NCBI RefSeq assembly: GCF_040546595.1 | Contig: NZ_JBEPOB010000001.1 | Coordinates: 317,501-381,500, forward strand | DNA: 64,000 nt | Source of the DNA: Bosea sp. OAE506 | GTDB taxonomy: Bacteria; Pseudomonadota; Alphaproteobacteria; Rhizobiales; Beijerinckiaceae | Direction of reading: 5' to 3' | Shown here: positions 11,472-47,399 of the stretch, piece after piece | Numbering within the stretch: the stretch's first letter is position 1 | How the letters are laid out: each line of letters begins with the position of its first letter | The notes under the pieces: model-generated | Seen by the model: the letters and a program-made list of their open reading frames with translations, nothing else | Database searches by the model: none | Told to the model about the DNA's origin: nothing | Program-made: the position numbers and the translations under genes

Positions 11472-11510
11472 CGTCAATCTCGTGTTCTTGTCGTCGCGTA
11501 GGCCACCCTG

Positions 11511-11559
11511 AGCCCTCATCCTGAGGAGGCCCGCAGGGACGTCTCGAAGGATGAGGGCT
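11511..11559. repeat. Palindromic intergenic repeat (AGCCCTCATCC...GGATGAGGGCT)
   Basis: Perfect 11-bp inverted arms at 11511-11521 and 11549-11559 around a CTGAGGAGGC...CGTCTCGAA core. It lies between the binding-protein stop and the SDR start within the operon. Its form is that of a REP-like element and differs in sequence from the GTCATCCCGG and CGTCATTCTCGGG elements elsewhere in the window. Could stabilise the upstream binding-protein message. Confidence 0.7.
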
Positions 11560-35995: not shown

Positions 35996-36040
35996 TTTCC
36001 ACTCCCCCCCTGGCCGCTGCCGTTCGCCTCATCCACGCCG

Positions 36041-36076
36041 GTCGTCCCGGGCGACCGCAGGGAGACCCGGGATGAC
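36041..36076. repeat. Short GTCGTCCCGGG...CCCGGGATGAC palindrome
   Basis: Arms at 36041-36051 and 36066-36076 with one G:U-compatible mismatch; REP-like intergenic element between the GMC gene and the membrane-protein gene. Confidence 0.65.
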
Positions 36077-36694: not shown

Positions 36695-36730
36695 GTGCGG
36701 CGCGACATTCAGCTTGGCAAGGATACACCC

Positions 36731-36757
36731 GTCATCCCGGGCTTGCCCCGGGATGAC
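36731..36757. repeat. Perfect GTCATCCCGGG palindrome
   Basis: 11-bp arms GTCATCCCGGG (36731-36741) and CCCGGGATGAC (36747-36757) with loop CTTGC, between convergent stop codons of the membrane-protein gene (36694) and the dehydrogenase gene (36779). It could act as a bidirectional terminator. Confidence 0.75.
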
Positions 36758-40188: not shown

Positions 40189-40301
40189 GTCATCCCGGAC
40201 GCAGCGAAGCGGAGATCCGGGATCCATTCCGGAACGCTTGCCGGAAAGGTTCAGGCATGGATCCCGGATCGGCGCCGCTGACGCGGCTTGTCCGGGATGA
40301 C
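40189..40301. repeat. Long GTCATCCCGGAC compound palindrome
   Basis: Outer arms GTCATCCCGGAC (40189-40200) and GTCCGGGATGAC (40290-40301) are perfect complements. Inside lies a second pair (GATCCGGGATCC near 40212 and GGATCCCGGATC near 40259). Two nested hairpins, a BIME-like element between vapB and cobO. Confidence 0.75.
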
Positions 40302-40331
40302 GGCGCGGGGTCGATCAGCGCCTGTGCCCCT

Positions 40332-41556: not shown

Positions 41557-41601
41557 GCGCACTGCATTGCACAGCCTCCCTCACATGGCTAATGATCGTC
41601 G

Positions 41602-41762
41602 CCGACGGTGCCTCCGCGAGGAGGTGAAAAGGGAACGCGGTGCAATGCCGCGGCTGCCCCCGCAACTGTAAGCGGCGAGTTTCGCGCCATCGGCCACTGG
41701 GAGCGATCCCGGGAAGGCGGCGTGGAATGACCAGACCCGCGAGCCAGGAGACCTGCCGTCGA
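41602..41762 (+). ncRNA. Cobalamin riboswitch
   Basis: Canonical B12-sensing leader. P1 strands GACGG (41604-41608) and CCGTC (41756-41760); GGTGCC with AGGGAACGCGGTGCAA-type segment (41631-41645); the highly conserved core GCCCCCGCAACTGTAAGCGG (41656-41674 region); GCCACTGGGA (41693-41702); and the closing GAGCCAGGAGACCTGCC (41741-41757). It lies about 134 bases upstream of the hupE-like ATG, so it controls the downstream cobalt-uptake and cob operon and would shut it down when adenosylcobalamin is abundant. Confidence 0.97.
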
Positions 41763-41853
41763 CAGTGTTCCTATGGGCCCATCGGACGGGGTGTTCCGAC
41801 GGCGGCTGTGTTCGCGTGGCGAAGGCCATGCGGCTCCGTCCTTGGGAACGTAT

Positions 41854-42532: not shown

Positions 42533-42952
42533 ATGAGCACGCAACTACAGCAGCCGCGCCCGGAAACGGGCACGGCTCCCGTCCGCATCCTCGTTTGCGC
42601 AACCTGCCGCGCCGCCGGAGGCGACCCCAACGCGCCCCGCCCGGGGGCCGTTCTCGCCGCCGGCCTTCGCGATGCGCTCGACTCAACGCTCGATGCCGCG
42701 GTCAGCGTCGAGACGGTCGAATGCCTCTCCGTCTGCAAGCGTCCCTGCACGGTGGCGCTCAGCGGCGAGGGCCGCTGGACCTATGTCTATGGCGATCTCG
42801 ACCCCGCGACGGGCGTCGAGACGCTGCTCACCTTCGCGCGGCAGTATCGCGAGGCCCCGGACGGAATCGTGCCCTGGCGTGAGCGCGCCGAGGCGATCCG
42901 CAAGGGCGTGGTCGCGCGCCTTCCTCCCCTCCCGATCGCGGGTTCCCGATGA
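42533..42952 (+). CDS. DUF1636 protein, putative metal-binding ferredoxin-like
   Basis: 139-residue DUF1636 protein. Four cysteines are arranged CATC (about 24-27) and CLSVCKRPC (about 64-72), in a thioredoxin-like ferredoxin pattern, with the family string GEGRWTYVYGDLDP. The family regularly sits between B12-regulated cobalt transport genes and cobW; function not established, metal handling or electron transfer likely. Its stop overlaps the cobW start (ATGA). Confidence 0.88.
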   Translation: MSTQLQQPRPETGTAPVRILVCATCRAAGGDPNAPRPGAVLAAGLRDALDSTLDAAVSVETVECLSVCKRPCTVALSGEGRWTYVYGDLDPATGVETLLTFARQYREAPDGIVPWRERAEAIRKGVVARLPPLPIAGSR

Positions 42953-43986
42953 ATTCCCTGACAAAGACTCCCTGCACCATCATCACCGGCTTCCTCGGCG
43001 CCGGAAAGACGACGCTGGTGCGCCATCTGCTCGAGAACGCGCAGGGCAAGAAGCTCGCGGTGCTCGTCAACGAGTTCGGCGATCTCGGCTTCGACGGCGA
43101 ATTCCTCAAGGGCTGCGGCATTTCCGGCTGCACCGAGGAGGACGTCGTCGAGCTCCCCAATGGCTGCATCTGCTGCACGGTGGCGGATGATTTCGTGCCG
43201 GCGCTGGAAAAGCTCCTGAACCGGGCCGATCCGCCGCAGCACATCCTGATCGAGACCTCGGGTCTGGCTTTGCCCAAGCCGCTGGTCCAGGCCTTCAACT
43301 GGCCGGCGATCCGCGCCCGCGTCACGGTCGACGGTGTCATCGCAGTCGTGGATGGCCCGGCGGTGGCCGAAGGCCAGTTCGCCGACGATCCCGAGGCGCT
43401 CGCCGCCCAGCGCGCGCAGGATGCCTCCGTCGAGCACGACAACCCGCTGGAGGAGGTCTTCGAGGACCAGATCCTCTGCGCCGACCTGATCCTCCTCAAC
43501 AAGAGCGACCTGATCGACGCGGCGACCCGCGAGCGGGTCAAAAGCGAGATTTCGGCGCATCTGCCGAAGGCGATCAAGATCGTCGAGACGAGCCGTGGCA
43601 CGATCGAGCCTGCGCTGATCCTCGGCCTCAGCGCTGCGGCGGAGGCTGATCTGGCCTCGCGCCCGTCGCATCACGGCGATGGCGACGACCATGAGCATGA
43701 CGATTTTGATTCGGTCGCGCTGGCGCTGCCGGCCGGGCTCGCGCCCGAAGTGCTCTCGGCCCGTCTCGGCAGGGCGGCCGAGGCGCAGGGCGTGCTGCGG
43801 CTCAAGGGCTTCGCCGCCGTGCCGGGCAAGCCGATGCGGCTCGTGGTGCAGGGCGTCGGCCGCCGCATCAGCCATCATTTCGACCGGGCCTGGACGGAAG
43901 GCGAAGCGCGCGACGGGCGTCTCACCGTGATCGGGCTCAAGGGCTTCGATGTGAAGGCGGTGGAGGCTGCGCTCGCCGGCGCCTGA
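42949..43986 (+). CDS. cobW: CobW GTPase (COG0523 cobalt chaperone)
   Basis: 345 residues. Walker A GFLGAGKTTLVRHLL, the metal-binding CxCC in NGCICCTV, GTPase motifs LIETSGLALP and LLNKSDLID, a His/Asp-rich loop (HHGDGDDHEHDD, about 240-250) and the C-terminal CobW_C domain. Thought to deliver cobalt to the CobNST chelatase, which fits its place directly before cobN. Confidence 0.96.
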   Translation: MNSLTKTPCTIITGFLGAGKTTLVRHLLENAQGKKLAVLVNEFGDLGFDGEFLKGCGISGCTEEDVVELPNGCICCTVADDFVPALEKLLNRADPPQHILIETSGLALPKPLVQAFNWPAIRARVTVDGVIAVVDGPAVAEGQFADDPEALAAQRAQDASVEHDNPLEEVFEDQILCADLILLNKSDLIDAATRERVKSEISAHLPKAIKIVETSRGTIEPALILGLSAAAEADLASRPSHHGDGDDHEHDDFDSVALALPAGLAPEVLSARLGRAAEAQGVLRLKGFAAVPGKPMRLVVQGVGRRISHHFDRAWTEGEARDGRLTVIGLKGFDVKAVEAALAGA

Positions 43987-44012: not shown

Positions 44013-47000
44013 ATGCATCTCCTCCCGACCAGCGAGATCAGGCTCGACGACGGCGAAGACGCCGTCGATCTTGCCCTGCCGCCGGGGGATGTCGTCGTGC
44101 TTTCCTTCGCCGACAGCGATCTCTCGGCGCTGGCGGCGGCGGACAGTGACTGTGATCTCACCGTCCGCCTCGCCTCGCTGCGGCGGCTGCGACACCCGCT
44201 CTCGGTCGATCTCCTGATCGAGAAGACCGTGGCGAAGAGCCGTTTTGTGCTGGTGCGCTGCCTCGGCGGGCTGGATTACTGGCGCTACGGCATCGAGCAG
44301 CTCAGCGAGACCTGCCGCGCCAGGGGCATCGCGTTGGCGGTGCTGCCCGGCGACGACCGCGACGACGCGCGGTTGGCAGAGTACGGAACCGTGCCGCCCG
44401 CCTGCGCGAGGGCGATCCTGTCGTATTTCCACGCCGGTGGCGGGGCGGAGAACATGCGCCGGCTGCTGGCGGTGGCGGCGGGGTATCTCGGCCGCGACCG
44501 GCGGCCGTCTCACCTCGCCCCCCTGCCCCTCTCGCCGCTGTTCGCGCTGGGCGCCAACGCCGCGCCGATGCCCTGGCGCGAGGCGCTCGCCGCCCTGCCC
44601 GACCGGCCCTTCGTGCCGATCCTGGTCTACCGTTCCGCTGTCAGCGCCGGCGACACGGCGATGGGCGAGGCTCTGGCGGCGGCGCTGGCCGCGCGCGGAC
44701 ACGCCCCGCTGATCCTCGCCCTCACCAGCCTGAAGGACCCCGCCGTCACAGCCGAGCTCGCGGCACTGATCGCGACGCGGCGGCCGACGGCCATCGTCAC
44801 AACCACAGCGTTCTCGGCCCGCGAGGGCGCCGGCTTCGTGCTCGACGGCGCCGATTGTCCCGTCTTCCAGGCAATGCCGGTCGGCAGCGCCCGTGACGCC
44901 TGGGCAGCCTCGCCGCGGGGGCTTTCGGCTACCGATCTCGCCATGCAGGTGGCGCTGCCGGAATTCGACGGGCGGCTGGGCACCATTCCCGTCGCCTTCA
45001 AGGCCGAGATCACCGACCCCGAAACCGGATTGGTGACGCGGCGGCTGGTGCCCGACGCAAACGGCGTCGCCGCGCTCGCCGATCTTGCGACCAACTGGAT
45101 CGCGCTGGCGTCGAAGCCGGCCGCCGCGCGCCGGCTGGCGCTGGTGATGTCGGATTATCCCGCGCGCGGCGGCCGGGCGGGCTTCGCCGTCGGGCTCGAC
45201 ACGCCGGCGAGCGTCGGCGCGATCCGGGGGCTTCTGGCGGAGGCGGGGTACGACATCCCATCCCGTCATTGCGAGCGCAGCGAAGCAATCCAGGGGGACG
45301 TCGAGCGAGACGGTTCTGGATTGCTTCGCTGCGCTCGCAATGACGGCCAAACCCTCATGGCCGCCCTCACCACCGGCCCGGCCAACCTCGCCCTCCCGCT
45401 CGACGCTTACAGGGCCTGGCTCGCCACCATCCCCCCCGACGCCCGCGAGGCGCTGATCGCCGCCCATGGCGCGCCCGAGGCCGATCCGGCCGTCAGCGAC
45501 GGCGCCTTCCGCTTCCGCGCCGTCCGCGACGGCGCTCTCACCATCGCGCTGCAGCCGCCGCGCGATGCGACCCCTGACCGGAAGGCGCGTTATCACGACC
45601 CCGACGCGCCGCCGGGTCATGGCTATCTCGCCTTCTATCGCGCGCTGCGCGACACGGCCGGCATCGACGCGCTGATCCATCTGGGCACCCATGGCACGAC
45701 CGAATGGCTGCCGGGCAAGGCGGTGGCGCTGTCGGCCTCCTGCTGGCCGCGGTTGGTCACGCAGGGGCTGCCGGTGGTCTATCCTTACGTGGTCGACGAC
45801 CCCGGCGAGGCCGCGCCGGCCAAGCGGCGGCTCTCGGCGGTGACGCTCGGCCATCTGCCGCCGCCGCTGGCGGAGATCGGGGCCTCAGGCGAGACCGCGC
45901 TGCTGCGCGATCTCGTCGAGGAGTTCAGCCAGGCGCAGGTGCTCGATCCGCGCCGGGCCGACATCGTCGCGAGCGAAATTCGGGCGCGGGCCCAGGCCAG
46001 CGGGCTGGCGGAATCCAGCGGCGTGACGCCCGATCTGCCGATGAGCGAGGCGCTGACGCGGCTCGACGCGCATCTCTGCGACATCGCCGAGTTGCCCTTC
46101 CGCGATGGCTTACATGTCTTCGGCCGGTCGGCGCTCGACCCCGTCTCCGCGCAGGCCGAGCGCGAGGGATTGCTGCGCGCGCTCGACGGGCGCTTCGTGG
46201 CGCCCGGCCCCGCCGGCTCGCCGCATCGCGGCCGGCCCGACGTGCTGCCGACCGGGCGCAACCTCTCGACGCTGGACCCGCGCGCGATCCCGACGCGGGC
46301 GGCTGCGCGGCTGGGCGCGCTGGCGGCGCAGGCCGTGATCGCGCGCCATCTACAGGATGAGGGCGAGCCGCCGCGCCGGATCGTGATGGATCTCTGGGCC
46401 TCGCCGACGCTGCGCTCGGGCGGCGAGGACATCGCCCATGCGCTGGCGCTGATGGGCGCAGCCCCTCTTTGGGACGATGCCTCGACGCGCGTCACCGGAT
46501 TCGCGATCACGCCGCAGCCGAAGCTCGCGCATCCGCGCGTCGACGTCACCGTGCGGATCTCGGGCGCCTTCCGCGACACATTTCCGAGCCAGGTCGCGTT
46601 GCTCGATGCCGCCGCGCGCGCCGTCGCGCTGCTGGACGAACCCGACGACTGGAACGAGCCCGCCGCCGCGCGACGTCGTGGCGAAGCCAGGGCGCGGGTG
46701 TTCGGCGCCGCGCCGGGCCGCTATGGCGCGGCCGTCGCCGACCGTGCGCTCGACGGCGACTGGAGCGGCCGCGACGAGCTGGGCGCCGCCTATCTCGCCG
46801 CCTCGAGCCATGCCTATGGCGGGCCGGAGGGCGCGGGGCATGCCGATGACAGCTTTTCCACCCGAGTCCGGACCGCCGACGCCTTCGTCCATGTCAGCGA
46901 CACCGCCGGACGCGACATTTTGGAGGCGTCGAGCGCCGCCGACGTCATCGGCGGACTGGCGGCCGCGGCACAGTCGCTCGGCGCGAACCCCTCGCTCTAC

Positions 47001-47399
47001 AGCCTCGACAGCTCTAATCCGGAGACGCCGAAGGCGCGCACGCTGGCGGAGGACATCGCCCGCATCGTCCATGGCCGGCTGACGCATCCGCGCTGGATCG
47101 CCTCCCATCTCGCCCATGGCTGGCGCGGTGCGGCGGAGCTCGCGGAAGCGATCGACACGCTTTTCGTCTTCGCCGCCAGCACGAATGCCGTGTCGGACGG
47201 GCTGTTCGACGCCGTGTTCCAGGCCTGGTGCGCCGATGCCGCGGTCTGGAGCGCGATCGAAACCGCCAACGCCCCGGCCGCCGAGGCAATCCGCTCGCGG
47301 CTGGCGGAGGCGGCGCGGCGGGGCCTCTGGACCAGCCGGCGCAACTCGGTCGGGGCGTTTCTGGCGGGCACGCCCGCGACGCGAGAGGCGGCGGAATGA
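44013..47399 (+). CDS. cobN: Aerobic cobaltochelatase subunit CobN
   Basis: 1128-residue large subunit that inserts cobalt into hydrogenobyrinic acid a,c-diamide with CobS and CobT (not in window). Family strings: SYFHAGGGAENMRRLL, FQAMPVGSARDAW, YHDPDAPPGHGYLAFYRALRD, LIHLGTHGTTEWLPGKAVALS, PYVVDDPGEAAPAKRRLSAVTLGHLPPPL split along the chain, and HVSDTAGRDILE. Residues about 417-445 are encoded by an in-frame palindromic insertion (SRHCERSEAIQ...LLRCARNDG) between DIP and LMAALTTGP. The frame stays open, so the gene is probably functional. Stop overlaps cobG start. Confidence 0.96.
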   Translation: MHLLPTSEIRLDDGEDAVDLALPPGDVVVLSFADSDLSALAAADSDCDLTVRLASLRRLRHPLSVDLLIEKTVAKSRFVLVRCLGGLDYWRYGIEQLSETCRARGIALAVLPGDDRDDARLAEYGTVPPACARAILSYFHAGGGAENMRRLLAVAAGYLGRDRRPSHLAPLPLSPLFALGANAAPMPWREALAALPDRPFVPILVYRSAVSAGDTAMGEALAAALAARGHAPLILALTSLKDPAVTAELAALIATRRPTAIVTTTAFSAREGAGFVLDGADCPVFQAMPVGSARDAWAASPRGLSATDLAMQVALPEFDGRLGTIPVAFKAEITDPETGLVTRRLVPDANGVAALADLATNWIALASKPAAARRLALVMSDYPARGGRAGFAVGLDTPASVGAIRGLLAEAGYDIPSRHCERSEAIQGDVERDGSGLLRCARNDGQTLMAALTTGPANLALPLDAYRAWLATIPPDAREALIAAHGAPEADPAVSDGAFRFRAVRDGALTIALQPPRDATPDRKARYHDPDAPPGHGYLAFYRALRDTAGIDALIHLGTHGTTEWLPGKAVALSASCWPRLVTQGLPVVYPYVVDDPGEAAPAKRRLSAVTLGHLPPPLAEIGASGETALLRDLVEEFSQAQVLDPRRADIVASEIRARAQASGLAESSGVTPDLPMSEALTRLDAHLCDIAELPFRDGLHVFGRSALDPVSAQAEREGLLRALDGRFVAPGPAGSPHRGRPDVLPTGRNLSTLDPRAIPTRAAARLGALAAQAVIARHLQDEGEPPRRIVMDLWASPTLRSGGEDIAHALALMGAAPLWDDASTRVTGFAITPQPKLAHPRVDVTVRISGAFRDTFPSQVALLDAAARAVALLDEPDDWNEPAAARRRGEARARVFGAAPGRYGAAVADRALDGDWSGRDELGAAYLAASSHAYGGPEGAGHADDSFSTRVRTADAFVHVSDTAGRDILEASSAADVIGGLAAAAQSLGANPSLYSLDSSNPETPKARTLAEDIARIVHGRLTHPRWIASHLAHGWRGAAELAEAIDTLFVFAASTNAVSDGLFDAVFQAWCADAAVWSAIETANAPAAEAIRSRLAEAARRGLWTSRRNSVGAFLAGTPATREAAE
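45263..45346. repeat. Palindromic element inserted in frame within cobN
   Basis: Perfect 31-bp inverted arms at 45263-45293 and 45316-45346 with a 22-base loop. The arms start CCGTCATTGCGAGCG and end CGCTCGCAATGACGG, the form of the genome's intergenic palindromes. It is translated as SRHCERSEAIQ, a loop part, then LLRCARNDG. Confidence 0.92.

Follow-up and report, generated by a model that had tools for sequence, protein, structure and literature searches.

Why does a B12 enzyme of Bosea sp. OAE506 carry a perfect palindrome inside its reading frame, and does this insert stand alone or belong to a wider pattern? The best reading of the data, which we regard as very probable, is that palindromic repeats have been inserted recurrently, and filtered selectively, in the loops of CobN, the 84-bp dimer of CGTC-tagged repeats at this locus included. 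The gene concerned, its upstream context, and the parts of the palindrome lie as follows in the window, that is, the whole stretch of 64,000 nucleotides that was analysed.

41589..41774, + strand: cobalamin riboswitch, 5' of the cob gene run (RF00174, 140.7 bits)
42949..43986, + strand: cobW, immediately 5' of cobN (open reading frame and profile match)
44013..47399, + strand: cobN, large subunit of aerobic cobaltochelatase, 1128 aa, bearing the insert (open frame; Pfam PF02514, E 2.6e-256)
45263..45293, + strand: left arm, a putative CGTC-tagged REP monomer with CGTC tag, ATTGC...GCAAT and CCAG tail (repeat search, fold, and the tag layout published in PMC3733652, as far as available)
45294..45315, + strand: 22-nt spacer of the head-to-head dimer, with near-identical spacers in dimers elsewhere in the Bosea genomes G019, G006, and G064
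45316..45346, - strand: right arm, an inverted copy of the left monomer (repeat search)

On the same strand, the riboswitch is followed in the 3' direction by hupE, a DUF1636 gene, cobW, and cobN, and further along the cob run by a nitrite/sulfite reductase-type gene, presumably cobG from its position, and then by precorrin-8X methylmutase. An Rfam scan of the window yielded the riboswitch alone at the gathering score. The riboswitch, hupE, DUF1636, cobW, and cobN would be co-transcribed given this arrangement, and the original prediction's description of a riboswitch-controlled mRNA is plausible. A pseudogene was ruled out, the frame being open in three sister species and dN/dS of cobN among them being 0.15-0.19 with the insert sites excluded.

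The palindrome itself is exactly as had been predicted, a perfect 31-bp inverted repeat with a 22-base loop: the arms are 31 nt each, 100% complementary and 22 nt apart, and the whole element occupies 45263-45346. The frame was likewise confirmed to stay open, with one open frame running over 44013-47399 and the insert reading as RHCERSEAIQGDVERDGSGLLRCARNDG, 28 residues, between ...GYDIPS and QTLMAALT... of CobN. Folded as RNA, the 84 nt reach -71.7 kcal/mol (z -14.0), with 0 of 200 shuffles equally good, and the 31-nt arm, with at most three mismatches, has two matches in the window versus 0.00 expected; a chance palindrome is ruled out by these two results. The bare 13-mer GTCATTGCGAGCG, with at most two mismatches, occurs in the window no more often than chance predicts (5 found, 5.7 expected), and the case for a repeat therefore rests on the full arm and on the copies in the genome.

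The layout of each monomer places the element more precisely. CGTC stands at 45264-45267, with its complement at the opposite end, and the order is CGTC-ATTGC...GCAAT-CCAG, in which AT opens the stem, CCA lies at the inner end, and both tag and tail are unpaired in the left-arm fold. The lone left arm folds into 5 bp, an internal loop, 2 bp, and a 3-nt loop, no better than its own shuffles, and the right arm folds differently. According to the available part of their paper, Di Nocera, De Gregorio and Rocco (2013; PMC3733652) described CGTC REPs as mainly head-to-head dimers, predominantly in alphaproteobacteria and sometimes in open reading frames, without a linked transposase; dimers or groups within open reading frames encode 20-30 residues, RPE-6 and RPE-4 of Rickettsia conorii are counted as CGTC repeats, and CCTC is a variant tag. 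As far as that source goes, the element here shares with CGTC REPs the outer CGTC tag, the AT at the stem start, the CCA tail, the head-to-head arrangement, the mostly intergenic location, and, for the Y1 family searched, the lack of a linked transposase; the stem of the left monomer, however, would consist of 5 bp and 2 bp on either side of an internal loop, less regular than the 8-9 bp stem and 4-5 nt loop reported there. Judged from sequence, the 84-bp element fits a head-to-head dimer of a CGTC-tagged REP. The comparison with the Rickettsia palindromic elements made in the original prediction is apt, since the available text of PMC3733652 places RPE-6 and RPE-4 among the CGTC repeats; the link is by publication, not by Rickettsia sequence.

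Copies outside cobN support this assignment. The genome (5.0 Mb, one contig) holds 14 distinct loci of the element (28 matches over both strands), arranged as head-to-head pairs of approximately 30 bp, namely CCGTCATTGCGAG...GCAATCCAG in the main form, a spacer of variable sequence, and the inverse, so that a copy reads CCGTCAT...CCAG-spacer-CTGG...ATGACGG, with longer variants among the arms and a degraded left arm at one locus. The element was also matched in 60 of 67 Bosea genomes, and the further copies expected for a repeat were thus found both within and beyond its own genome. Dimers at other places in G019, G006, and G064 are 95-97% identical to the cobN copy, spacer included (best of many copies). 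In G010, 86 matches to the 84-bp element fall in just 13 scored stretches, pointing to dense clusters or arrays. A RAYT-driven GTAG REP was ruled out for this genome: no match to Y1_Tnp (PF01797), Y1 being the sole transposase family searched, was found anywhere in it, and the tag is CGTC rather than GTAG.

The length of the matched stretch is divisible by three in only 4 of the 14 loci, and every copy has a stop in at least one of the six frames, so that many landings in a gene would break it. Within 860 kb of the genome, 22 copies of the repeat families described below were located, 20 between genes and 2 within (cobN and uvrC). Landings inside genes are rare survivors, because 20 of the 22 copies are intergenic though genes, by crude calling, take up 77% and 87% of the two blocks making up the 860 kb. 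For family A, that of the cobN element, 4 of 5 copies in the 860 kb are intergenic; with the 14 genome loci, this bears out the earlier view that the arms are of the intergenic-repeat type.

Occupation of CobN was then scored across the genus and its relatives. Among the named loci, the closest CobN sequences were those of Bosea, and the genus set comprised 67 genomes, 65 of them with a match to CobN or its paralogue. From the Bosea genomes and named relatives 148 sequences were taken, 109 of them distinct, and scoring covered one CobN for each of 57 genomes of the Bosea set plus 50 others (49 from other genera and the divergent same-genus L158). Outside the Bosea 57 were the second fragments L157 and L160, L158 (placed among the 50 others), G021 (fragments only), and eight genomes without a usable CobN. 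Besides S4, the site of the 84-bp element, four internal positions were distinguished, all empty in the gene studied here.

44144..44146, + strand: site S1, following CobN residue 44; filled in 12/57 Bosea CobN
44510..44512, + strand: site S2, following residue 166; filled in 27/57 Bosea CobN
44561..44563, + strand: site S3, following residue 183; filled in 6/50 other CobN (Microvirga, Chelatococcus)
45530..45532, + strand: site S5, following residue 506; filled in 21/50 other CobN (Methylobacterium, Methylorubrum)

At least one insert was present in 47 of the 57 Bosea CobN, at one to three of four recurring sites (S1, S2, S4, and the C-terminus); none of these sites was occupied in 10 proteins, one in 23, two in 15, and three in 9. 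S4, the loop 418-445 with the 84-bp element, was occupied in 39/57, a count that includes seven short remnants with 21-24-codon linkers (L073, L081, L106, L119, L125, L130, and L134), and the C-terminus in 2/57. The check for the roughly 28 residues in related CobN came out in favour of the original prediction: S4 is unoccupied in 18/57 Bosea proteins and in 50/50 others, and family A stands there in 8/57. Methylobacterium and Microvirga CobN carry inserts at sites of their own. The S1 inserts of L142 and L148 are compound, and in four Bosea S2 inserts (L039, L045, L136, and L139) small hairpins (ISGLPEM...SRQQPTL and a variant) are nested within the S2 palindrome, in both arms in L039 and L139.

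The control genes behaved differently. GlnD showed 0 inserts, with a single match per genome, gaps of no more than a few residues, and a match in 65/67 genomes (read from the match table); one match spans only 7-847 of 914, and GlnD, at 914 aa, is both shorter than CobN and more strongly conserved. BchH, the CobN paralogue, had inserts in 0/16; 17 sequences were aligned and L280 was dropped as a different protein (30% identical), and of the 16, contig ends cut L277, L281, and L283, and L281 and L282 are split over two frames. The repeat library gave no match in BchH L281 or L282, and a weak 35-nt repeat match in BchH L277 (E 9e-4) was ruled out as an insert, the protein match running through it. 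For L282, the bchH of G019, the two overlapping matches (11-949 and 919-1251) point to an assembly error or frameshift, and no repeat lies there. GlnD and BchH replaced a first control gene, dropped because its query had paralogues and mostly partial matches (39/67 genomes). CobN is unusual against these two control genes.

The inserts at S4 are of several kinds, namely family A (CERSEAIQ..., 8/57), C (VIPGLTRDP...), H (VIPDAAERRSGIHSG...), B (PHPEEPRSGVSKD...), and F (PLPPACGGEG...), plus unassigned ones. The family labels are motifs written after inspection of the insert peptides, with "F" pooling several GC-rich hairpins; without a label remained 1/27 inserts at S2, 1/39 at S4, 2/6 at S3, and 6/21 at S5. 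In a library comparison C and H proved related (78% over 117 nt), and A, B, C/H, D, and F gave no match to one another. S4 thus holds no fewer than four different repeat families. Members of families B, C, D, F, and H also lie at several further places in several of seven Bosea genomes, among the matches listed, with 40 stretches scored per genome. Family E, among the matches listed for the seven genomes, was seen only at its own place and is absent from the 860 kb, and its status as a repeat is therefore weaker.

Terminal tags tie most of these families together. The pair GTCAT...ATGAC was found in 33/39 inserts of families A, C, D, and H over all sites, versus 19/2180 random 160-nt windows of the same genes, and the pair CTCAT...ATGAG in 35/40 inserts of families B and E, versus 10/2180 such windows. 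As CCTC is a variant tag in the available part of PMC3733652, the families may represent one superfamily. The fold of 66 of the 99 inserts of at least 60 nt beats all 30 same-length windows of its own gene; the 33 that fail to do so include 11 of family C, 6 of family D, and five S5 inserts (L070, L076, L079, L086, and L093) that resemble ordinary variable sequence. The encoded peptide varies too: translation passes through the second arm in different frames in L038 and L042, and through the first arm in a different frame at S5 of Methylobacterium brachythecii L090.

Whether such a pattern reflects one landing or many was addressed with a CobN tree. S4 required 20 state changes, with C and H kept apart or merged, and 11 for presence or absence alone; shuffled labels required a mean of 37 and a minimum of 33, so that part of the S4 pattern is inherited. 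S2, S1, and S5 required 12, 10, and 16 state changes, respectively. Family A inserts at S4 in five other, more distant Bosea are 85-89% identical to the cobN element in four cases and 56% in the fifth, which is badly trimmed, and are no closer to it than ordinary copies in the same genome, which reach up to 93% identity. Repeated insertion, rather than one diverging insert, is favoured at S4 by these sequence comparisons, because identities at the site are 56-89% versus 95-97% elsewhere, unoccupied alleles exist, and different families are found. No target-site duplication or exact empty allele is definable at S4, because the loop itself varies. Among 14 orthologous intergenic comparisons, nine showed the same family with 1-13 mismatches, some gapped, four a different element in the same spacer, and one no element (L014 in G047), the last with a further deletion. 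The spacers at L010, L016, and L018, compared with those of G015 and G019 (L287, L289, L294, and L296), hold different palindromic elements in sister species.

In structural terms, an AlphaFold2 model of CobN built from 30 sequences (mean pLDDT 78, pTM 0.61) places the insert in a low-confidence loop, residues 419-441 scoring under 50 in pLDDT and lying between the helices 398-410 and 439-454, a result in line with the original prediction. S1 (44) is predicted to lie close to where helix 34-46 ends, S2 (166) next to the low-confidence residues 162-164, and S5 (506) at the turn joining strands 503-506 and 509-513. CobN relatives have been solved (9uk9 and 7c6o), and in alignments their linker at S4 is shorter; Foldseek returned 7c6o as the top match of the model at a TM-score of 0.49 and rmsd of 13, so that the domain arrangement of the model is not trustworthy. 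The proposal that a B12 enzyme tolerates a mobile palindrome as a surface loop held for the repeat status, the in-frame position, and the recurrence, while the surface position would correspond to the low-confidence loop of the model. Overall, the original prediction was right on the object and its kind, but saw one insert where the data support a recurrent multi-family pattern.

A sequence of events compatible with these results can be outlined. A CGTC REP dimer in head-to-head form, mobile now or in the past, would have entered cobN in an ancestor of three sister Bosea species, probably with the whole dimer inserted by transposition. It would owe its retention to a length that is a multiple of three, to the lack of a stop in the frame read, and to a peptide lying in a flexible loop that joins two helices. 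The same process would have occurred many times, different palindromic repeats landing and surviving in a few CobN loops of Bosea, Methylobacterium, and Microvirga, with selection presumably deciding survival by removing landings that are out of frame or damage the structure, and the insert peptide itself would have no task of its own.

The age of the present insert is a separate matter. In G000 (the genome studied here), G015, and G019, the 84 nt are identical at 84/84 positions while cobN differs at 8.7-9.6% of sites (90-91% identity), with dS of 0.25-0.30, and while orthologous intergenic copies of the family differ at 1-13 positions. Such identity is unexpected under plain neutral descent, and the cobN copy is either constrained or recently exchanged. 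A short insert-bearing tract may have passed among the three sister species by homologous recombination, explaining the identity and making the landing single and recent, and this seems to us possible, if on the unlikely side. Identical runs spanning the insert measure 156 nt for G000-G015 and 113 nt for the other two pairs, the longest in the gene for each pair; however, other parts of cobN also hold identical runs of 100-110 nt in these pairs, and the tract is not clearly out of line. Exchange would, moreover, bear on the age of the insert and not on its nature.

The filling of the same few sites could also be mechanical, with existing palindromes or particular sequences attracting further elements, rather than a matter of tolerance only. 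The elements nested in the S2 inserts, those in both arms of L039 and L139 above all, the compound S1 inserts of L142 and L148, and the different elements in the same spacer in 4 of the 14 intergenic comparisons would all agree with targeting, yet recurrence is explicable by survival in permissive loops and spacers alone, and no common target sequence was shown; we regard targeted insertion as unlikely. A stronger version, which we think decidedly unlikely, makes CobN of Bosea and related genera a standing landing platform, at which machinery common to a CGTC/CCTC superfamily inserts or swaps dimers at the same few positions. If this were true, families would replace each other at one protein site, as they seemingly do in orthologous intergenic spacers.

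The same 84/84 identity, the perfect arms, and the location within a gene run that follows a riboswitch would be expected of an insert kept for a function, either as an RNA hairpin (-72 kcal/mol) pacing translation or mRNA decay or as a peptide modulating CobN. Against a function stand the 10/57 Bosea CobN without an insert at every scored site, the variation of peptide and frame among species, the different hairpin families at the same site, and the 33/99 inserts without an outstanding fold, and we consider it improbable. Finally, a single ancient insert that predates the genus and has diverged beyond recognition, the "families" being its versions, has in its favour the same sites filled in many species, the outer tags CGTCAT or CCTCAT common to most families, the relatedness of C and H, and the preference for this reading in Rickettsia in the available part of PMC3767692, but is most improbable in view of the empty S4 of 18/57 Bosea and 50/50 other CobN, the close genomic copies elsewhere, among the matches listed, for different S4 families, and the S4 family A inserts of other species, which are no nearer to this one than ordinary genome copies.

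The pattern can be set beside the palindromic elements of Rickettsia. The R. japonica paper (PMC3767692), in its available part, reports different RPE groups in orthologues and prefers one diverged insert, with hotspots "still not negligible". The Bosea inserts resemble the RPE-4, RPE-6, and RPE-7 described in that text in being in-frame palindromes in enzymes (in exposed parts, in Rickettsia), in the different groups found in orthologues, and in the ATGAC motif. According to the same portion of that paper, insertions are present in all compared Rickettsia orthologues, whereas Bosea has unoccupied alleles and several families at one site. Because occupied and unoccupied alleles, several families per site, and up to three sites per protein are available, the Rickettsia debate between hotspot insertions of different origin and one old diverged insert becomes directly testable in Bosea. 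R. conorii guanylate kinase was shown by experiment to be active with its palindrome-encoded insert (Abergel et al., 2006, as presented in the available part of the review PMC2229807); CobN is likewise an enzyme with a palindrome-encoded insert, its case being known from sequence whereas activity is experimental there.

With respect to earlier descriptions, "cobN" and "cobalt" are absent from the main text of PMC3733652, and the available part of that paper gives no description of multi-family occupation of one protein over a genus. In open-licence full texts, among the papers listed, no description of recurrent multi-family occupation of CobN loops was found, nor any paper on cobN or Bosea with palindromic repeats. 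The single insert belongs to a known kind, and the recurrent multi-family pattern in CobN goes beyond what those texts describe. The pattern can serve as a natural test of where an enzyme of 1100 residues takes up 12-80 additional residues in its loops, and it makes Bosea CobN a system in which to seek the mover of CGTC repeats, which is not named in the available parts of PMC12306157 and PMC6006769, both citing the 2013 REP paper.

A further parallel concerns uvrC: the available part of PMC3767692 names excinuclease ABC subunit C in its list for the Rickettsia RPEs, and uvrC of this genome also has an insert. This Pfam-confirmed uvrC (G000:C1:2345734-2347047 = L206:5734-7047, minus strand) carries an in-frame family B insert, TPHPEEAEPAAVSK...APQDEGS, in its RNase H domain. 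Within the window, a palindromic repeat lies between two genes at 40190-40318, seemingly composed of an H-type arm and a C-type arm (TCATCCCGGACGC...GGGATGACGG), with a fold z of -3.8 over 40214-40318. In addition, families B and C have short intergenic matches in the window at 11505-11554, 36039-36073, and 36729-36754, which may be remnants or single arms.
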